Shown piece by piece: positions 3,331 through 18,476 of a stretch of 21,488 nucleotides of DNA. The position numbers and the translations under genes were made by a program. The first letter of the stretch is position 1; every line of letters begins with the position of its first letter. The DNA is from a virus. Under the pieces are notes generated by a model. That model did no database searches, was not told where the DNA came from, and worked only from the letters and a program-made list of their open reading frames with translations. The stretch spans positions 1 to 21,488 of IMG/VR virus record IMGVR_UViG_3300046028_001120; one strand, written 5' to 3'.

Positions 3331-3825
3331 ATGGCTTTACCCAATAAAATTCTTCCCGGCTTCAGTGCCTCGATGTATGCCCAACCTCTGGCTACTCCTG
3401 TGCCATTGACCTTGGCTCAACTGTCAACCCTTGCCAGCGTTGCTGCAATTGCCGTGTCTGGCAACTTGATGAACATTGAAGCAGTACCTGCTTTCGGCCA
3501 AGATGATGCAGTAGCTTCGTACTCGGTTGCCGGTTCGCGTCAAAGTGACAAGATTCCCGCTCAATCGGCTCCCACTTCGATGACTATCACGGCGGCTTGG
3601 AATCCTTCTGACGCGGTGACTTTGTTGCTTCGCACGGACGCATACAGCGGTATCGTTGATCGCACTTTTGTGATCGCTGCTGTTGAAGGTGCCAACATCG
3701 TTTATTACTCCTTCATTGGTCGCGTGTCGCAATTCCAAATTGACGCCCAGCCCGGTGCAGAAGCCAAATGTGTCTACACGATTCACCCTCGCGGAAATCT
3801 GTACGGCTGGACGAACAACGCTTAA
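3331..3825 (+). CDS. Major tail (tube) protein, copy 1
   Basis: A 164-residue protein with AAGGAAATG upstream of ATG 3331. It is very likely a tail tube subunit. It lies between the tail terminator and the tail chaperone, where the major tail protein is normally found, and is rich in short beta strands. The core has FGQDDAVASYSVAG, QSAPTSMTITAAWNPSDA, DRTFVIAAV and GRVSQFQIDAQPGAEAKC-YTIHPRG, all shared with the next gene. Tube proteins stack as hexameric rings around the tape measure. The stretch from residue 48 to 95 matches copy 2 at 44 of 48 positions, yet the DNA differs at many third positions, so both copies appear old and under protein-level selection. I recognise no family name for it; the assignment is from position, size and pairing. 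Confidence 0.7.
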   Translation: MALPNKILPGFSASMYAQPLATPVPLTLAQLSTLASVAAIAVSGNLMNIEAVPAFGQDDAVASYSVAGSRQSDKIPAQSAPTSMTITAAWNPSDAVTLLLRTDAYSGIVDRTFVIAAVEGANIVYYSFIGRVSQFQIDAQPGAEAKCVYTIHPRGNLYGWTNNA

Positions 3826-3841: not shown

Positions 3842-4360
3842 ATGGCAGCACCAGCAGTAGTATTACCCGGCTTTAGTGCCTCAATGTGGATGCAGTCGGG
3901 TGCCACGCCCACGGCATTCTCCACCGCAAACTTGTCGGTGTGGGCGCTTCAAGTCGCCACCATCGTCGGCACCGTGGCAAACGGAACCGGCGCAGCAGGT
4001 ACAGCGTTGAACGTGGAAGCAGTCCCGGCCTTTGGTCAGGACGATGCAGTGGCATCTTTCAGTGTGGCTGGCACCCGTCAGTCAGACAAGATTCCAACGC
4101 AATCCGCGCCCACCAGCATGACGATCACAGCCGCCTGGAATCCTTCGGATGCCGGTCTGTTGTTGATTCGTGGCGATGCCATCAGCGGCGTCATTGACCG
4201 CACCTTCGTGGTTGCAGCCGTCAGCGGCGCCAGCACGATTGCCTACGCTTTCAATGGCCGCGTAAGCCAGTTCCAGATCGACGCTCAACCTGGCGCTGAA
4301 GCCAAGTGCATGTTCACGATCCACCCCCGTGGCAATCAGTACGGCTGGAGCAACACGTAA
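3842..4360 (+). CDS. Major tail (tube) protein, copy 2
   Basis: A 172-residue paralogue of the preceding gene, 16 nt downstream, with TAGGAG as ribosome-binding site. It begins with the same LPGFSASM pattern, carries an insertion of about nine residues near position 42-55 (GTVANGTGAAG region), and then follows copy 1 closely, including an identical 18-residue block GRVSQFQIDAQPGAEAKC. Either this copy or copy 1 may form the bulk of the tube, with the other making a minor ring, a terminal ring or a mixed tube. The better ribosome-binding site suggests that this copy is well expressed. The stop TAA overlaps the next ATG (4358-4362). Confidence 0.7.
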   Translation: MAAPAVVLPGFSASMWMQSGATPTAFSTANLSVWALQVATIVGTVANGTGAAGTALNVEAVPAFGQDDAVASFSVAGTRQSDKIPTQSAPTSMTITAAWNPSDAGLLLIRGDAISGVIDRTFVVAAVSGASTIAYAFNGRVSQFQIDAQPGAEAKCMFTIHPRGNQYGWSNT

Positions 4361-4563
4361 TGGCAACCCTTGACCAAGTGGTTAAGGGATTGGTTTCAGC
4401 CAATGGAGACTTGGACTTAATCGCCAGGTTTTCAGTGGTTGATGCCAACGAAGTTGCTGCCGCATTGGCCTCTGCTGACGCTGATTCGGCTGAAGGTGTG
4501 GCACTTGCCTTGCTGGCGAAGTACAACCCTGTCTTGGCTGTGGCAAAGAAGTCCAAGTCATGA
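4360..4563 (+). CDS. Small phage protein of unknown function (67 aa)
   Basis: A 67-residue ORF whose ATG overlaps the stop of the tail tube gene and whose TGA overlaps the next start (ATGA at 4560-4563). Two starts were possible; the upstream one at 4306 lies inside the tail tube gene, so I use 4360. The protein is acidic and alanine-rich (DANEVAAALASADADSAEGVALALLAKY) and ends in a basic AKKSKS tail; it looks helical. I do not recognise a family. Its position immediately after the tail tube genes suggests a small tail assembly factor, without further support. Confidence 0.6.
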   Translation: MATLDQVVKGLVSANGDLDLIARFSVVDANEVAAALASADADSAEGVALALLAKYNPVLAVAKKSKS

Positions 4564-4946
4564 AATTCAGCGTAGAGCAATCTCAGGCGAATCCAGTTGG
4601 CGAGTTTGCGACTTGCCTGCTGCACAGCGTGACCGGCGCACATATGCTGCACCTGGCAACGTACAGCCTTGCAGAGCATAAGGCTCTGGAAGCCTTCTAT
4701 TCGGCCATTGGCGACCTCGTGGACAGCTTCGTAGAGGCATATCAGGGAAAGTACGCCAATCGCGTTTCCTATCTTCCAGAATTTATCTTGCCAGGCGACG
4801 CTGTTGACTACTTGACCTACCTCAAAGATGAGGTGGCGACTCTGCGTTTTGCAGATGGATTCCCTAAAGACTCCGAACTGCAAAACATCACTGATGAAAT
4901 TGCTTTATTGATTGACAGCACGCTATACCAACTCACACTCAAATGA
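4560..4946 (+). CDS. Dps/ferritin-like phage protein (DUF5856-like)
   Basis: A 128-residue, predominantly helical protein, coupled to its neighbours by ATGA overlaps at both ends. The N-terminal half (HMLHLATYSLAEHKALEAFY, then DLVDSFVEAYQGKY) resembles the Dps-like phage family I know as DUF5856. Residues H28, H40, E44, D55 and E59 have the same spacing (+12, +4, +11, +4) as the ferroxidase ligands H51, H63, D67, D78 and E82 of E. coli Dps. Dps proteins bind and oxidise iron and form dodecameric cages, some binding DNA. The C-terminal half (70-128) is less conserved in appearance but also helical. Its place between tail tube and tail chaperone genes is unexpected for an iron protein. It could be a host-protection factor, a virion component, or a helical-bundle protein that no longer binds iron. 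Confidence 0.65.
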   Translation: MKFSVEQSQANPVGEFATCLLHSVTGAHMLHLATYSLAEHKALEAFYSAIGDLVDSFVEAYQGKYANRVSYLPEFILPGDAVDYLTYLKDEVATLRFADGFPKDSELQNITDEIALLIDSTLYQLTLK

Positions 4947-5170
4947 CACAACAAACGACAATACAAAACACCGGCGACCTGCTGAACTTTCTCGCAAAGC
5001 AATCAGAGACTCGCAAAGACTGGTTTGGGTTTATGCAGCAGCGGATGACCGCAGTTACACTAGCCCACGAGATTGCCAAGCATCACGCACATCACATGAC
5101 CCCATGTGAGATTGTTGCGTATGCGCTGGCGCTCAATCAAGAAATTTTCAACAAGATCATCAAAGGATAA
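4943..5170 (+). CDS. Small histidine-containing helical protein (75 aa), unknown
   Basis: A 75-residue ORF starting in an ATGA overlap with the Dps-like gene and ending 3 nt before the tail chaperone start. It looks largely helical and carries a cluster AHEIAKHHAHHMTP (five histidines in 14 residues), which could bind a metal ion. I recognise no family. The tight coupling suggests it is made together with the Dps-like protein, and a metal-related role would fit both, but this is only a guess from composition and position. It might equally be another tail assembly factor. Confidence 0.6.
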   Translation: MTQQTTIQNTGDLLNFLAKQSETRKDWFGFMQQRMTAVTLAHEIAKHHAHHMTPCEIVAYALALNQEIFNKIIKG

Positions 5171-5173
5171 AAC

Positions 5174-5629
5174 ATGAGCAAGCTCAATTCTGCATTTGGC
5201 GATTCAAAATCGCTGCGCATCAAAACCTTCGCCTTGGCTGGACACGACTTCAAAGTGCGTGTTCCACTGTCCAAGGAGCTTGAAGACATCCAAGCCCGCG
5301 TCAGCGCCGTTGACAAAGACAAGGCAGAGGCCCGTTACATCAAGATGGCGGCTCCATTCTTGGCTGACACCTCTATCAGTGGCGTGGAAATCAAAGAAGA
5401 CGATGTGGTGGTTGATGGCCGCTCCTTGCGCGATCTGGTGAAGACGGTTTCCATGATGGAGTCAAAGATCGTTGAGTACATCAAGCTGCTGGTGCCAATT
5501 GAAGGCACCTTGGATGACATCACCTACGAAGAAATCGAAGCTGAGTGGCCCACCCAAGTGCAGATGGAATTGCTGGAAAAGATTTCTGATGCAATCCAAC
5601 CCGGCTACAAGGACGCTCGAAAAAACTAA
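5174..5629 (+). CDS. Tail assembly chaperone, short form (gpG-like)
   Basis: A 151-residue protein, ATG preceded by AAAGGATAAAAC. It is in the standard position of the first tail assembly chaperone, between tail tube and tape measure genes, and is acidic and helical, with KELEDIQARVSAVDKDKAEARY in the N-terminal half and ITYEEIEAEWPTQVQMELLEKI near the C-terminus. In lambda the equivalent gpG, with its frameshift product gpGT, coats the tape measure and recruits tube subunits, and neither ends up in the virion. The last three codons before the stop form a canonical slippery heptamer, which is the strongest evidence for this identity. The sequence itself does not resemble lambda gpG in any way I can point to. 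Confidence 0.8.
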   Translation: MSKLNSAFGDSKSLRIKTFALAGHDFKVRVPLSKELEDIQARVSAVDKDKAEARYIKMAAPFLADTSISGVEIKEDDVVVDGRSLRDLVKTVSMMESKIVEYIKLLVPIEGTLDDITYEEIEAEWPTQVQMELLEKISDAIQPGYKDARKN

Positions 5630-5970
5630 TCAAGGACACACACTCGCAGGCCAGGGCATACGTTCTGGCTCACGGTGGGTGTCCTGATGAAATTAACTCT
5701 GAAGACTTCAGGAATATTGAGATACTGCTGAGTGACGGCTACATCGGGAACAAGGCAATAGTTCTGGCATTGAGTTGCTTGACTACAGGCAACCTGAATG
5801 CGAAACTCAAGCAAGGTGTTTCACCGTACACAATAAAAGATGTGCTGCCATCAATGCACGAATACATTATCCCGCCCCTTGATGAAGAAGTGCAGCAAGT
5901 GCAGGTTCAAAACCAATTGCTTTCCTTCATGATGTCAAGACCTGAATCGAAGGACTTTTTGAAAGTGTGA
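5174..5970 (+). CDS. Tail assembly chaperone, G-T frameshift fusion
   Basis: A -1 frameshift at 5620-5626 would join the 151 codons of the short chaperone to an open frame running to the TGA at 5968-5970, adding 114 residues and giving a 265-residue fusion. The added part begins LIKDTHSQARAYVLAHGGCP and ends MMSRPESKDFLKV. It has no stop from 5626 onward and no good ATG start with a ribosome-binding site of its own, as expected for a T domain made only by frameshifting. In lambda the T part contacts the tail tube protein and G binds the tape measure, so the rare long form links the two. The tape measure gene is separated here from the T frame by one more gene (5972-6460). Confidence 0.82.
5620..5685 (+). 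promoter_or_regulatory. Programmed -1 frameshift signal: slippery site plus stem-loop
   Basis: The heptamer A_AAA_AAC (5620-5626), in the zero frame cgA AAA AAC, is the classic X_XXY_YYZ slippery site and is followed at once by the zero-frame stop TAA (5627-5629). After a 6-nt spacer, bases 5633-5639 pair with 5679-5685 (seven pairs), extended by 5641-5643 with 5675-5677 after one mismatch; inside the loop, 5650-5654 pairs with 5665-5669. A stem starting 5-9 nt after the slippery site is the usual stimulatory arrangement. The pairings were found by eye. Confidence 0.85.
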
Positions 5971-5971
5971 A

Positions 5972-6460
5972 ATGGCCGACTACTCCCCAAACAATAGGAC
6001 GATCAAGCTGGAAGGCTTCGCTGAGTTTGAGGAGCAGTTGAAGGCTATGGCGCAAGGGTTCCGGGCTGACTTGGTGGCCCGCAATACGCTGGCGAAGGCG
6101 GCTGGTGATGCAATGCAGGTCGTTGAGGTTGCCGCAAGGTCTAGGGCGCCATATGATGAGGAAAACACGTCTGGCATCCATATGCGAGACACCATCAGGA
6201 CTGAATTCAGAATACCTCACTCGAAAGACAAGGAATCTGCCTATGTCAATGAAACCGATGCGGCAATCGCAATTGTTTCAGTCAAGAGAAGCAAGGTTTC
6301 TCTAGCAAATGAATTCGGTACGGCTAAAATGGCCGCGCAGCCATTTCTTCGGCCAGCGTTAGATAGCAACGCAGAAGCTGTTTTGTCTGCTTTTAAAGAG
6401 CGGCTGTCCATACTCATCCCAGCTTACGCGCTGAAACTTTCCAGACGAAGGAAGAAATAA
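5972..6460 (+). CDS. HK97 gp10-like neck / tail completion protein
   Basis: A 162-residue protein starting 1 nt after the T-frame stop. It shows the gp10-family pattern: an N-terminal LEGFAEFEEQLKAM helix, a middle helix followed by VAARSRAPYD and a TSGIHMRDTIR region (corresponding to the family's P--TG-L-DSI/RDTI), and the signature NEFGTAKMAAQPFLRPALD near 112-130, then a final helix and a basic RRRKK end. The family is thought to act in head-tail joining or tail completion. It usually lies between the head-tail adaptor and the tail terminator; here it is downstream of the chaperone. Its stop overlaps the tape measure ATG (TAATG, 6458-6462). Confidence 0.8.
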   Translation: MADYSPNNRTIKLEGFAEFEEQLKAMAQGFRADLVARNTLAKAAGDAMQVVEVAARSRAPYDEENTSGIHMRDTIRTEFRIPHSKDKESAYVNETDAAIAIVSVKRSKVSLANEFGTAKMAAQPFLRPALDSNAEAVLSAFKERLSILIPAYALKLSRRRKK

Positions 6461-8906: not shown

Positions 8907-11759
8907 ATGGCAGTCCCAAATACATTCGCCAGCGCCACAAGCGCAATCCCGCTTGCTGACCTAGACGCAAACTTTGCGTACTACGATGCAGGATTTTCGC
9001 TAAGTGGCGCAGCAGTCACGTTTGCTGGCGCCATTACGCTTAATACGGGAACAGCCAATGGCGTTGCCTACCTCAATGGCTCCAAAGTATTAACTACAGG
9101 TGCGGCACTAACTTTTAACGGGACGAATTTTGGCATTGGTACAAACAACCCTGCTGTGGAACTTGAGGTTTCTAGCGCGACAGGCTCTGCAACGCCAGCG
9201 CCTACTGAAGTCCGAATTTCAACCGCAACTTCTGCAAGTGATTGGTCAACAACTTTGCCTTGGGGTCGCCTGAGCTTTTACAGCGCGGATGTAAGCGATG
9301 CTGGCCCTAAGATTCAAGGCGCGGTTGATATTGTTGCCGACCTACTAAACGGCGGCAGGTCTTCTATGGTGTTCAGCACCTCTGCACCAACTACGGGAAT
9401 ACTCACTGAGCGTATGCGCATTGGAAGTGGCGGCGACATCACTATGGCAAACGGCGTAGCCAACGGGGTAACCTACTTCAACAGCAACAAAGTGCTGTCA
9501 AGCGGTACGGCGCTGGTGTTTAACGGGACGAACTTGGGCCTTGGCACCACAGCACCGGCTGTTAAGTTGGAGATAGCCGGAACCAACACCAACACTTGGG
9601 TAGTAACCGCGTCAATTACTGGCGCAACGATGGATGTGACCGCAGTAACCACCGGAACTATCGCTGTTGGTGATTTGGTGTACGGCCCAGACGTGCAACC
9701 CTACACTAGGGTGACTGCTCTTGGAACAGGGACAGGCGGCATTGGTACCTACACGGTCAGCGTTTATCAGACGGTTGCATCAACAGCCGCTATGGTTGGC
9801 ACCCCGACATACGGCGGTACGCTTATCCGCATAACGGACACAGACACAGCGCAATCAGTTAATCAGCCAAACGGTGCCCTACAGTTTTACACCTCTGACT
9901 CTTCCACCCCAACTGCCGGTGTTGGTGCCTACGTAGCTGCGCTTGCTGAAAGCAGCGGGCCAGACACGGCTCTTGTATTCGGCACACGGAACAACGCGGG
10001 TGGTGCTGTTGACGCCAACGAGCGTATGCGCCTTAATTCGGACGGCAACCTTGGCTTGGGAACTGCCGCACCTACGGCTAAGTTGGACGTTGTTGGCACT
10101 GCTGCAATCAGCGGGGCGGTAACTCTCTCAGGAGGCACAGCCAACGGCGTGCCTTACTTGAATGGCAGTAAGGTAATTACCACGGGTACGGCGCTGGTGT
10201 TTGATGGGACGAATTTGGGTGTTGGGGGGTCTTCTTCAGGGGCAAAACTTTCCGTAAACAAAGGTGCTTCTGGAGCAATATTGCGGTTAACAGATGGCAG
10301 CCAACAGAGTATGGATGTTTCATCTAATGCTGGAGCCGGAGCAGCAGGTGTTATTACGACCGATACTTTAAACGCAGGCGCTCAGGCTTGGGCTATTGGC
10401 TCCACAGAACAAATGCGCCTAACCAGCACAGGGCTGGGCATTGGGACGAGTTCTCCTGCTGAAAAACTGCACGTTGCAGGTGCTGTTCGCATTGTCACAA
10501 CAGGAACGCCAAGCGGTGTTGCTGCCTTGCAGATTTCTGCCGATGCCACCAATGCTAGAACCATACGCATGACCAACACGGGCGCAGGGGGCAGGACATA
10601 TGACTTTATCAATGGTGCCGCCGGGGTTGCTGGCAACTTCGGCTTTTTTGACGATACGGCTGGCGCTTACCGTTACATCATAGACACCGCAGGCAACCTT
10701 GGCTTGGGGGTTACTCCTAGTGCTTGGTTTAGCATCTATAGAGCATTGCAGATTGGCTCTTATGGCGCTTCTATTGCGGGTCAAACAAATGACCAAGCTC
10801 TGTCATTGTGGAGCAATGCCTATCCAAACGCAAGTAACGTAGATACTTATGTTGCCTCAAATTCCGCAACAAAATACCGAACTGAAAACGGCACTCACGC
10901 TTGGTTTAACGCCCCCTCCGGCACAGCAGGCAACGCCATAACCTTCACCCAAGCAATGACGCTGGACGCCAGTGGGAATTTGTCGGTGGGTACAACCACA
11001 CCAAGTGGAAGACTGACTGTCCTTCGCAGCTTAACTGGCGCAACCGACTACACCACAGAACAGGTTTCTGTTATTAACAGCGCAACGGGTGCAACGGGGA
11101 ATCAAGCCACTATCGGTTTCCACTTGAACAATGCGAATTGGGGGCCAGCAACTACGTATGCCCGTATTTCAGCAGTTTCGGAAAACGGCACAACTGGCGC
11201 AACAGCGTTAGCTTTTGGTACGGCTACAGATGGTTCTTTAGCAACCCCCACAGAACGCATGCGCATAGACTCCAGTGGAAATTTGTTGGTGGGGACTACG
11301 GCGACAATCAACGCTGCAAAAGCAGTCATCCAGTTTACCAGTGCAAACAACGGCCTGTATTTAGACGAGATTTCAAACTCGAGTGGCACTCAATATATTA
11401 GGTTTTCACAAAGCGGGACGACTACAGGCTCTATTACTCGTGTGGGTACTACTGCTGCCGTTTTATACAACACCTCCTCCGACTACCGCCTGAAGAACAT
11501 CACCGGCCCCATCACTGCCAGCGGCGCTTACATCGACAGCCTGAAGCCCGTTGAAGGCACATGGAAAGCTGACGGCTCCGCGTTTGTTGGTTTGATCGCC
11601 CACGAAACTCAGGAGGTGTCACGCACCACCGTTGCAACCGGCACCAAGGACGGCGAAGAAATGCAGGGCATGGATTACTCCAGCGCCGAAATCATCGCCA
11701 ACCTGATTGCAGAACTCCAATCCCTCCGCGCCCGTGTGGCACAACTTGAAAGCAAATGA
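8907..11759 (+). CDS. Tail fibre with C-terminal S74 self-cleaving chaperone domain
   Basis: A 950-residue receptor-binding fibre with TAAGGAAAATC before the ATG. The N-terminus (MAVPNTFASATSAIPLADLD) matches a common phage fibre start. The shaft has three copies of a 31-residue unit (G-ANGV-Y-N--KV---G-AL-F-GTN-G-G) at 48-78, 183-213 and 410-440, and repeated E(R/Q)MR(I/L)--(S/T)-G turns. The end, from about residue 857, is an intramolecular chaperone of the peptidase S74 type: S858-D-Y-R-L-K863 gives the Ser and Lys of the autoproteolytic dyad, followed by FVGLIAHETQEV and a C-terminal coiled coil (IIANLIAELQSLRARVAQLESK). In this family the domain drives trimer folding and is then cut off before the serine. 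Its place between tape measure and tail-tip genes is not usual. Confidence 0.88.
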   Translation: MAVPNTFASATSAIPLADLDANFAYYDAGFSLSGAAVTFAGAITLNTGTANGVAYLNGSKVLTTGAALTFNGTNFGIGTNNPAVELEVSSATGSATPAPTEVRISTATSASDWSTTLPWGRLSFYSADVSDAGPKIQGAVDIVADLLNGGRSSMVFSTSAPTTGILTERMRIGSGGDITMANGVANGVTYFNSNKVLSSGTALVFNGTNLGLGTTAPAVKLEIAGTNTNTWVVTASITGATMDVTAVTTGTIAVGDLVYGPDVQPYTRVTALGTGTGGIGTYTVSVYQTVASTAAMVGTPTYGGTLIRITDTDTAQSVNQPNGALQFYTSDSSTPTAGVGAYVAALAESSGPDTALVFGTRNNAGGAVDANERMRLNSDGNLGLGTAAPTAKLDVVGTAAISGAVTLSGGTANGVPYLNGSKVITTGTALVFDGTNLGVGGSSSGAKLSVNKGASGAILRLTDGSQQSMDVSSNAGAGAAGVITTDTLNAGAQAWAIGSTEQMRLTSTGLGIGTSSPAEKLHVAGAVRIVTTGTPSGVAALQISADATNARTIRMTNTGAGGRTYDFINGAAGVAGNFGFFDDTAGAYRYIIDTAGNLGLGVTPSAWFSIYRALQIGSYGASIAGQTNDQALSLWSNAYPNASNVDTYVASNSATKYRTENGTHAWFNAPSGTAGNAITFTQAMTLDASGNLSVGTTTPSGRLTVLRSLTGATDYTTEQVSVINSATGATGNQATIGFHLNNANWGPATTYARISAVSENGTTGATALAFGTATDGSLATPTERMRIDSSGNLLVGTTATINAAKAVIQFTSANNGLYLDEISNSSGTQYIRFSQSGTTTGSITRVGTTAAVLYNTSSDYRLKNITGPITASGAYIDSLKPVEGTWKADGSAFVGLIAHETQEVSRTTVATGTKDGEEMQGMDYSSAEIIANLIAELQSLRARVAQLESK
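9048..10226 (+). repeat. Three 93-bp imperfect repeats in the fibre shaft
   Basis: Units at 9048-9140, 9453-9545 and 10134-10226 each code for 31 residues of one repeat. Units 2 and 3 share the identical 18-base run GGTACGGCGCTGGTGTTT at 9504-9521 and 10185-10202, while unit 1 is more diverged. All keep the reading frame. Spacing differs (405 and 681 bases), so they mark module boundaries rather than a simple tandem array, and could serve as recombination points. Confidence 0.8.
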
Positions 11760-13028: not shown

Positions 13029-13702
13029 ATGTAATTGGCCCGGTCCAAGATACCAATGTCATTCGCTACGCCGATTTCTTTCGGCTTGGCATGCAAGACG
13101 GCACCTATTATTTTGCGACAACCCCAGCGCCGATTACCGTTCCATCAATTTCTGATACGCCATTTACAGCCTTGGGCCAGCTCGTAAGCGTTGGAAATGT
13201 TCAGCGCGACATCAAAAGCACGGCAAACGAAACCACGATCACGCTGGTCGGCGTTGACACGGCCATGCTTGGTCTGGTGCTGAATGCAAAAATCAAGGGT
13301 TCATCCATTGACCTTTGGCATGGATTTTTTGATAGCAATAATGAATTGATTACTTCAATTACTGTTCCTTGGATAAACAGCGTTGGAAATCAAATACCGT
13401 GGACTAACACATATTTTTCCGAAATAAATTGGACATCTGCTGCTGCTGGCACTGGCGTCTACAAATACTTCAGCGGCTATGTCAATTCGTTCTCAATTTC
13501 AGAGCAATGGATGGAAGAAACCCGCTCCTATGTTGGCGTGGTCACCATCAGCGCGTCCAGCTTTCAGTTGATCCTTCAGAATCGCACGGCGGGCCGATAC
13601 ACCAATGACAATGCTTGGGCATCCGTAACTCCTGGCGACACATCCATGAACCGGGTCAACTACATCTCCACCATTAACTACGCCTTTGGCAAAACGCCAT
13701 GA
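13025..13702 (+). CDS. Putative tail-tip / hub protein (225 aa)
   Basis: A 225-residue protein starting with GTG 13025, in a GTGA overlap with the previous stop and with an almost ideal ribosome-binding site. It is beta-rich: ISDTPFTALGQLVSVGNVQRDIKST, TITLVGVDTAMLGLVLNAKIKGS and IDLWHGFFDSN suggest a barrel-like hub domain, and the C-terminus has SSFQLILQNRTAGRYTNDNAW. The layout resembles the DUF2163/hub-like proteins found next to J-type tip proteins, but I cannot name the family with confidence. It lies between another tip gene and a GNAT gene, followed by the J-like gene, so a place in the tail-tip complex is likely. Confidence 0.6.
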   Translation: MNVIGPVQDTNVIRYADFFRLGMQDGTYYFATTPAPITVPSISDTPFTALGQLVSVGNVQRDIKSTANETTITLVGVDTAMLGLVLNAKIKGSSIDLWHGFFDSNNELITSITVPWINSVGNQIPWTNTYFSEINWTSAAAGTGVYKYFSGYVNSFSISEQWMEETRSYVGVVTISASSFQLILQNRTAGRYTNDNAWASVTPGDTSMNRVNYISTINYAFGKTP

Positions 13703-14157
13703 TCCGCAAAGCCACGCCATTTGATATGCCTGCGCTTGTAAGTATGATGCGGGGCTACGCGAAAGAAATTCCAATGGAGACTTTGAAGGACTCCAGCCTG
13801 CATGACCAAGCGCACATTGAATCGTTGATGGCAAGCCTCATGGCTGGGCGCGGGTTTGTCTTGATTGATGACCTATACCGTGGCTTCATTGCAGCCGTAA
13901 TCAATCAAAACACTTGGTGTCCATCCGTCTACGAATTGAATGAATTGGCTTGGTGGGTGATGCCAGAACATCGCGGAGGAACGACTGGCGGCAGGCTTTG
14001 GAAAAAATTTGATTTGTTGGCACAAGACCTGTTGGATAATGGGCGCGTTCAAATTATTTGCACGTCATTAAACGCAAATTCTCCCGGCATTAATTACGAA
14101 AAACACGGATACCAATTAATGCAAAAAACATATTTTAAGGAATTACAATGCCAGTAA
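13699..14157 (+). CDS. GNAT family N-acetyltransferase
   Basis: A 152-residue protein starting in an ATGA overlap. It has the GNAT fold pattern: N-terminal IRKATPFDMPALVSMM, a central GFVLIDDLYRGFIAAVI strand pair, motif A at 82-104 (NELAWWVMPEHRGGTTGGRLW) with the R92-G-G-T-T-G-G pyrophosphate-binding loop for acetyl-CoA, and the C-terminal INYEKHGYQLMQKTYFKEL segment. GNAT enzymes transfer acetyl groups to amines of proteins or small molecules; the substrate here is unknown. The gene is coupled upstream to a tip gene and its 3' end overlaps the J-like gene, so it is made with the tail tip. Similar genes occur next to tail-tip genes in other phages as far as I recall. It might modify a virion protein or a host target. 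Confidence 0.8.
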   Translation: MIRKATPFDMPALVSMMRGYAKEIPMETLKDSSLHDQAHIESLMASLMAGRGFVLIDDLYRGFIAAVINQNTWCPSVYELNELAWWVMPEHRGGTTGGRLWKKFDLLAQDLLDNGRVQIICTSLNANSPGINYEKHGYQLMQKTYFKELQCQ

Positions 14158-17456: not shown

Positions 17457-18476
17457 ATGACACAAAGCTATAACCTATCTCAACTTGCCAACAACCTGAA
17501 CACGGCGGGGCAGCTTGATGCTACCGATGGCCTTGTTGGCGCTGTTCCACCGGCAAATGGCGGGACTGGATTGGCAAGCTACGCAGTTGGCGACTTGATC
17601 TATGCAAGCGGCACAACAGCCATCGCCAAGTTGCCTGATGTAGCCACCGGCAACGTGCTTCTTTCTGGTGGTGTTGGAGTGGCGCCAGGATATGGCAAAG
17701 TGGGGTTGACTACTCATGTGAATGGAACACTCGGCCTTGCAAATGGCGGCACCAATTCAACCTCTACACCAGTGGCCGGGTCGGTCATTGTTGGGACGGG
17801 TAGCGCAATGGCGGCAACGGCAGCAGGCACAGCGGGCCAAGTCCTGACAAGTGCAGGCGCCGGGGCGCCAACATGGTCAAATGCTGCTTCTACATCGCTT
17901 CTTGGCACTGCAATTACAACCACCGGGATGCCTCAGACGTTTACTATCCCAGCAGGTGTGACTAAACTGAAGGTCACAATTGTTGGTGGTGGCGGCGGTG
18001 GTGGCTCTGGAGACTTTAGCACCTTGTCAGGCGGAGGCGGTGGAGGCGGCGGAACATCTATTGTTTGGCTTTCTGGACTGACGCCTGGCTTAACAATAAA
18101 TGTCACTGTTGGTCTTAGCGGAAGCGCCGGAGCAACTGGCGGAACATCAAGTATTTCATCTGGCACTCAATCAATTACATCCACAACAGCAACAGGCGGT
18201 GCTGGTGGATCAAGCCTTACAGGCGGAAGCGGCGGCAGTGGAACTGGGGCCACAATTATTGTTGGTGGTGGCGCTGGAAATCATGGCCTTCTCAATGGAT
18301 CATCTGGCCCTGGCGGCACTGGCGGATCAAGCACTTTTGGTGGAGGTGGTCTAGGATCACCGGGAGGCGGCGTGGCCGGATCGGCAGGACGAAATTATGG
18401 TGGTGGTGGCGGTGGAGGCGGGTTCAGCAACGTGGGTGGAGTTGGTGGCCCCGGAATTGTCTTGTTTGAATACTAG
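17457..18476 (+). CDS. Glycine-rich tail adhesin
   Basis: A 339-residue protein; ATG directly follows the stop of the J-like gene. Residues 30-145 carry two fibre-type repeats (ANGGTG--SYAVGDLIYASG at 33-52; ANGGTNSTSTPVAGSVIVGT at 95-114). From 162 the FTIPAGVTKLKVTIVGGGG block opens a glycine-rich domain of the type in Pfam Gly_rich_2, with seven- and eight-glycine runs at 177-183 and 192-199 and another at 315-322, and the typical end GIVLFEY. Glycine-rich domains in phage tips can form polyglycine-II helix bundles with loops that set receptor choice, as in the gp38 adhesin of S16-type phages. A role as tip adhesin with the J-like protein is likely. Confidence 0.8.
   Translation: MTQSYNLSQLANNLNTAGQLDATDGLVGAVPPANGGTGLASYAVGDLIYASGTTAIAKLPDVATGNVLLSGGVGVAPGYGKVGLTTHVNGTLGLANGGTNSTSTPVAGSVIVGTGSAMAATAAGTAGQVLTSAGAGAPTWSNAASTSLLGTAITTTGMPQTFTIPAGVTKLKVTIVGGGGGGGSGDFSTLSGGGGGGGGTSIVWLSGLTPGLTINVTVGLSGSAGATGGTSSISSGTQSITSTTATGGAGGSSLTGGSGGSGTGATIIVGGGAGNHGLLNGSSGPGGTGGSSTFGGGGLGSPGGGVAGSAGRNYGGGGGGGGFSNVGGVGGPGIVLFEY

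Follow-up and report, generated by a model that had tools for sequence, protein, structure and literature searches.

A Dps-like DUF5856 protein encoded in an optional slot of a phage tail module

The tail gene module of a phage includes a small gene whose product resembles the miniferritin Dps, raising the question of what such a protein does there and how close the resemblance is. The gene lies in a 21,488-base IMG/VR virus record, the whole of which was analyzed and is referred to here as the window. An initial annotation placed a Dps-like protein with the exact ferroxidase ligand spacing of E. coli Dps between tail tube and tail chaperone genes. It offered three possible roles: guarding host or phage DNA against oxidation late in infection, binding iron in the virion tail, or acting as a helical assembly factor with the same fold. 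The open reading frame is present at the coordinates then given (Table 1). We conclude that its product is a genuine Dps-like protein from a phage family that is large and already known, and that the exact Dps spacing and the tie to the tail were taken too literally.

Table 1. Coordinates in the window of the Dps-like gene, its borders and the codons of candidate ligand residues
Feature	Position	Strand	Remarks
DUF5856 / PHROG 858 gene, Dps-like four-helix protein	4560..4946	+	128 aa; Pfam, PHROG, AlphaFold2
ATGA overlap of DUF5856 gene start with stop of small upstream gene 4360-4563	4560..4563	+	sequence
ATGA overlap of DUF5856 gene stop with start of next gene 4943-5170	4943..4946	+	sequence
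Small gene, upstream slot border	4360..4563	+	67 aa; usually present with or without DUF5856
Small gene, downstream slot border	4943..5170	+	75 aa; present with or without DUF5856
His28 codon, helix A	4641..4643	+	135/136; His51 equivalent in the initial annotation, more likely an extra histidine
His31 codon, helix A	4650..4652	+	136/136; probable Dps His51 equivalent (profile-profile alignment)
His40 codon, helix B	4677..4679	+	invariant; Dps His63 equivalent
Glu44 codon	4689..4691	+	aligned with Dps Asp67; variable across the family
Asp55 codon, helix B	4722..4724	+	invariant; Dps Asp78 equivalent
Glu59 codon, helix B	4734..4736	+	invariant; Dps Glu82 equivalent

Family membership and predicted fold

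The window protein belongs to Pfam family PF19174 (DUF5856; E 1.7e-17, 64.7 bits against a curated cut-off of 34.6) and to phrog_858 (E 1.8e-24), for which the PHROG label is 'starvation-inducible transcriptional regulator'. The closest IMG/VR relatives are up to 99% identical. Relatives were identified by tblastn in 1,284 phage records, mainly of T4-like phages and Ackermannviridae, and usually carry either the PHROG label or 'hypothetical protein'. The DUF5856 gene of T4-like phages is rI.-1, which adjoins rI. One relative, from an uncultured phage record of 642 kb (L277:1501-1881), has a longer N-terminus and a longer A-B turn. The literature searched yielded no paper naming DUF5856.

Direct matches to ferritins were not identified. 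The window protein matched neither the Pfam Ferritin family nor any NCBIfam family, and PDB sequence searches with the protein or its close alignment as query returned chance matches only. As E. coli Dps used as a query found no relative in IMG/VR, the Dps comparison sequences (n = 31) were drawn from bacterial genomes.

AlphaFold2 predicts four helices (residues 12-33, 37-65, 81-95 and 105-126), with a mean pLDDT that rises from 89.9 for an alignment of 38 sequences to 94.5 for one of 60 diverse sequences. Foldseek ranked E. coli Dps top among PDB structures in both runs, and Dps chains occupied most of the leading ranks. The probabilities of these Dps matches were mostly 0.9-1.0, yet the E-values were weak (best 0.012). 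TM-scores were moderate, up to 0.69 to Dlp-2 (3.4 Å) and about 0.5 to E. coli Dps. Matches to viral models included 'Putative DpsA' cr106_1 and RI.-1 of RB43. As modeled, the protein is a ferritin-like four-helix bundle, and its closest solved structures are those of Dps. Structure prediction and a search against Dps and DUF5856 had been proposed as checks on the initial annotation; in these, Dps led the Foldseek ranks and DUF5856 matched above its cut-off.

The model places H28 and H31 within the two final turns of helix A, and H40 within the opening turn of helix B. The H51 and H63 ligands of Dps occupy matching places, at the end of helix A and the start of helix B. A helix-wheel analysis puts the helix-B ligands about 157 degrees off the hydrophobic direction (112 in Dps); for helix A it is uninformative. 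The BC helix of Dps is absent from the model. The N-terminus has one lysine in its first 20 residues (pI 4.56) and no Lys/Arg-rich DNA-binding tail. Such a basic N-terminal tail is a feature of E. coli Dps and is absent from some Dps.

Conserved residues and their register with Dps

The offsets between H28, H40, E44, D55 and E59 are +12, +4, +11 and +4, and are the same as those between H51, H63, D67, D78 and E82 of E. coli Dps, the sequence of which was verified against PDB 1f30. The motif is unique in the six frames of the window, and shuffled copies of the protein matched its loose form at 1.9e-4 and its exact form at 3.5e-5, rates that make a chance origin improbable. The arithmetic of the initial annotation is therefore correct, and the question becomes which of these residues the family keeps.

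Conservation was evaluated in 136 DUF5856 members, most of which share 25 to 85% identity with the window protein. H31, H40, D55 and E59 are invariant (136/136), and H28 (135/136), D112 (135/136), G63 (132/136) and S36 are near-invariant; the window protein carries all of them. Position 44 is mostly G (G in 70 members, E in 43, Q in 10, D in 7 and others in 6). E44 is thus not a feature of the family, whereas H28 and H31 both are. The corresponding D67 position holds D or E in 27 of the 31 Dps sequences. Among the residues first proposed, homologues therefore keep H28, H40, D55 and E59 and do not keep E44.

Aligning the 136 DUF5856 members with the 31 Dps sequences in hhalign gave a probability of 81% and an E-value of 1.2e-5, values that refer to one comparison and not to a database search. 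H40 is paired with H63, D55 with D78 and E59 with E82; H31, not H28, is paired with H51, the A-B turn being gapped by three residues. The Dps profile aligned three individual members (L093, MW202484 and L148) in the same register. Two others (L127 and L129) have an A-B turn three residues longer, so that their equivalent of H31, here followed by leucine (HL), lies at +12 from the H40 equivalent. A crAss-like member, L278, has lysine at position 28 and the complete motif HW-x10-H-x3-D-x10-D-x3-E. It matches the Dps profile with an E-value of 1e-8, and plain phmmer against the PDB retrieved mostly Dps (best E 0.0014). Despite its full Dps motif, this protein (L278:1468-1860) passes the DUF5856 Pfam cut-off (47.9 bits). 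L278 is a bridge between the DUF5856 and Dps families.

The exact +12 spacing from H28 looks coincidental, because the members with longer turns place the H31 equivalent at +12 and L278 has lysine at position 28. The Dps-like ligand set itself is real. We rejected H28 as the counterpart of Dps His51 in favor of H31, based on the profile alignment and on L278, L127 and L129. Thus, the offsets first reported stand as numbers, but the residue assigned to His51 was the wrong one and E44 is not a conserved ligand. The window protein also departs from Dps in the pattern around its first ligand: H31 and H40 are separated by +9 and residue 32 is L, in place of +12 with HW. The latter combination was seen only in L278, and tryptophan follows the first histidine in only 9 of the 136 members.

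Could the resemblance to Dps be a superficial convergence of four-helix bundles? The weak Foldseek E-values, the lack of conservation at the D67 position and the lack of a direct ferritin-profile match for the window protein are all consistent with this. We nevertheless regard convergence as very improbable, given a bridging member with the complete HW...H...D...D...E motif and an E-value of 1e-8 to the Dps profile, and a register obtained independently by profile-profile alignment. The identification of a Dps-like protein with a metal-type residue set is borne out by AlphaFold2, Foldseek, the profile comparison and the conservation across 136 members.

An optional gene among tail genes

The DUF5856 gene is preceded by two tail-tube-like genes and a small ORF, and followed by small ORFs, an HK97-gp10-like gene and a tape-measure gene. 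No promoter or terminator signal above that of shuffled sequences was found near it. The initial annotation was right about the tail-tube-like side of this neighborhood. On the other side, gene 5174-5629 had no library match, and its identity as a tail chaperone is a guess from position. The downstream neighbor of the DUF5856 gene encodes a protein with a histidine-rich stretch (AHEIAKHHAHHMTPCEIV) that is kept at the slot edge with or without DUF5856; it has no significant family match in Pfam, PHROG or NCBIfam.

We defined the slot as the interval between the tail-tube gene and the small gene 4943-5170, and read it in 80 records (not dereplicated) of relatives with the same tail genes. DUF5856 occupies the slot in 26 of the 80, and in the other 54 the slot is empty, with the flanking genes close together. 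Five of the records with an empty slot (32.8-40.0 kb) have a single DUF5856 gene elsewhere; in four filled-slot records the gene is likewise present once. No DUF5856 gene was found in three empty-slot records of 30-33 kb and in shorter ones, which may be fragments. No phage record searched has more than one copy.

Outside the tail module, the upstream neighbors of DUF5856 genes are small HNH or RusA nucleases, and the downstream neighbors are ParB/methyltransferase, HNH or terminase small-subunit genes. Other members sit beside lysis genes (rI in T4-like phages), and most relatives are found outside tail modules. The gene is thus a movable, optional passenger of the late operon, and its tail location is incidental, since 54 of 80 slots are empty, five of these phages have a copy elsewhere and the neighbors differ in other phages.

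These observations bear on the suggestion that the protein is a helical chaperone for tail assembly in the phage group of the window. In one group of relatives the gene does always sit between one particular pair of small genes, with 4-base overlaps on the downstream side, and such an overlap occurs in 24 of the 26 relatives with DUF5856 in this slot. However, tails are encoded by the same genes where the slot is empty, some of these phages carry DUF5856 elsewhere, and most family members are outside tail modules. We therefore rejected the assembly role, which the empty slots and other placements largely refute and which we now consider hardly tenable.

In a tree of the tail-slot alleles, the best topology requires 3-4 changes, and a single origin is compatible with the data. 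A DUF5856 gene located outside the slot, in a phage whose slot is empty (L032), branches as the sister of one cluster of in-slot alleles (support 92/96). In another relative (L029), identity to the window is 85-97% for most of the flanking genes but only 63% for DUF5856, which suggests that alleles have been exchanged. The chaperone-like and HK97-gp10-like genes in 5174-6460 vary in order and similarity among relatives, the HK97-gp10-like gene sitting about +0.6 or +1.4 kb from DUF5856; thus, this portion of the tail module is exchanged too.

Several other features of the window were recorded. The adjacent tail-tube-like genes 3331-3825 and 3842-4360 are similar, with the common stretch VEAVPAFGQDDAVAS.SVAG.RQSDKIP.QSAPTSMTITAAWNPSDA. 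Because both were matched in the relatives examined, the pair suggests a two-protein tail tube. The adjacent capsid-like genes 38-679 and 680-1783 encode similar C-termini (TLPGFITFYGEKR... and TTPGFVTLYAEKR...), and possibly represent a duplicated major capsid gene. By eye, we identified a GNAT-type acetyltransferase-like protein among the tail genes (13699-14157), a fibre-like protein with an end resembling an intramolecular-chaperone (S74-type) domain (8907-11759), and a fibre-like protein with a glycine-rich tip (17457-18476).

Proposed role and relation to known systems

We favor, with moderate confidence, the explanation that DUF5856 (the T4 rI.-1 family) is a phage-specific, shortened branch of the Dps/miniferritins, and that its members are metal-binding, late-made and optional passengers. 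The family membership, fold, conserved residues and optional location on which this explanation builds were computed directly. We predict that two subunits pair as in Dps, and that the helix-A and helix-B histidines of one subunit would face D55 and E59 of the other. Together these residues could bind iron or another divalent metal. Fe(II) may be oxidized or sequestered in this way late in infection, which would reduce Fenton damage to DNA. Given an optional gene of varying place in the late operon, the protein is probably made late and may act in the infected cell or ride with the virion, possibly after packaging, and it is probably not a part of tail assembly. Protection of DNA from oxidation is the most economical putative role. 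Weighing against this explanation are the weak Foldseek E-values, the TM-score of about 0.5 to E. coli Dps, the lack of a direct ferritin match, the unconserved D67 position, and the absence of a BC helix (in the model) and of a basic N-terminal tail.

Two members of the family have been detected in purified virions of Ackermannviridae. ORF78 of the Dickeya phage LIMEstone1 (117 aa, 13.15 kDa) is described in PMC3296691 as a 'confirmed structural protein', with 3 unique peptides and 28% coverage by virion mass spectrometry and a putative late promoter just upstream. Its PHROG 858 name, and a gene order that matches the DUF5856 genes of related phages, identify ORF078 as a family member. For gp217 of the Salmonella phage Sajous1, PMC10892097 reports 10 spectra from virions purified in CsCl, and Phyre2 matched it to 'Ferritin' at 96.7%. 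By its translation, gp217 is closely related to the DUF5856 protein encoded by EspM4VN. Because family members were found in these particles, virion association of the window protein is plausible by analogy.

These detections would be accounted for if the protein were part of the virion and either took iron with it, inside or on the particle (the 'Ferrojan horse' role proposed for gp217 in PMC10892097), or guarded DNA internally. Such a component would also suit a gene within a structural operon, as in the window, and the LIMEstone1 authors' statement in PMC3296691 that ViI has structural counterparts of all the unknown structural proteins of LIMEstone1. However, PMC10892097 reports that TonB and FeoB mutants were infected like wild type by the Sajous1 group, and phages that are otherwise alike may have or lack the gene. 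The virion data come from distant relatives and may reflect co-purification, as a protein cage filled with iron might have the density to accompany phage in CsCl. We consider an iron-carrying or DNA-guarding virion component rather unlikely. Bolder, and less likely still, is the idea that DUF5856 is a virus-adapted miniferritin with a remodeled site, in which three conserved histidines and two carboxylates replace the five-ligand set of Dps, and which would be made late, packaged, and used to guard DNA or to deliver iron into the next host.

We also considered a regulator that uses the old Dps fold without metal, perhaps to set the time of lysis, a role put forward for T4 rI.-1. The gene adjoins rI in T4-like phages, and over-expression of rI.-1 slightly delays the collapse of lysis inhibition (Golec et al. 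2010, cited through the review PMC6832632). The over-expression effects given there are small, and H31, H40, D55 and E59 are strict in phages without rI as a neighbor, a pattern that a metal site fits better. A metal-free regulator is accordingly improbable in our view, and we retain the metal-binding miniferritin.

The ferritin and virion ideas are already known for the family. As far as our searches show, the new elements are the residue-level link to Dps, the revised register and the evidence that the slot is optional. The residue assignment is corrected, and the gene is shown to move between genome modules. In the collection searched, a relative occurs in more than 1,200 phage records, those of T4-like phages included. 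If the family is a metal-binding branch of Dps, a single assay of T4 rI.-1 or LIMEstone1 ORF78 would give all of it a function, and would put to the test the idea that phages themselves supply control of iron and oxidative stress.

Compared with Dps (E. coli Dps, Dlp-2 and MrgA), the window protein has the same four-helix bundle, and its H31, H40, D55 and E59 fall on H51, H63, D78 and E82. It lacks about 40 residues relative to E. coli Dps, its A-B turn is shorter by 3 residues, and like its family it has an extra near-invariant histidine (H28) and does not keep the D67 position; the BC helix (by the model) and the basic N-terminal tail are missing. Within DUF5856 / PHROG 858, T4-like rI.-1 is of the same family by the curated cut-off, with similar length and conserved residues. 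The T4-like genes adjoin rI whereas the window member sits among tail genes, and the RB51 protein is only about 28% identical to it. The Ackermannviridae gene, unlike that of the window, sits in a myovirus of 150 kb, close to primase and further structural genes. Typical Dps genes are likewise phage-borne in Lactobacillus, Streptomyces and gut 'Gratiaviridae' phages, and a guard against oxidative damage has been proposed for those of Lactobacillus and gut phages (PMC6669764, PMC8008677). Those proteins are recognized by their similarity to Dps, whereas DUF5856 forms a separate, shorter branch.
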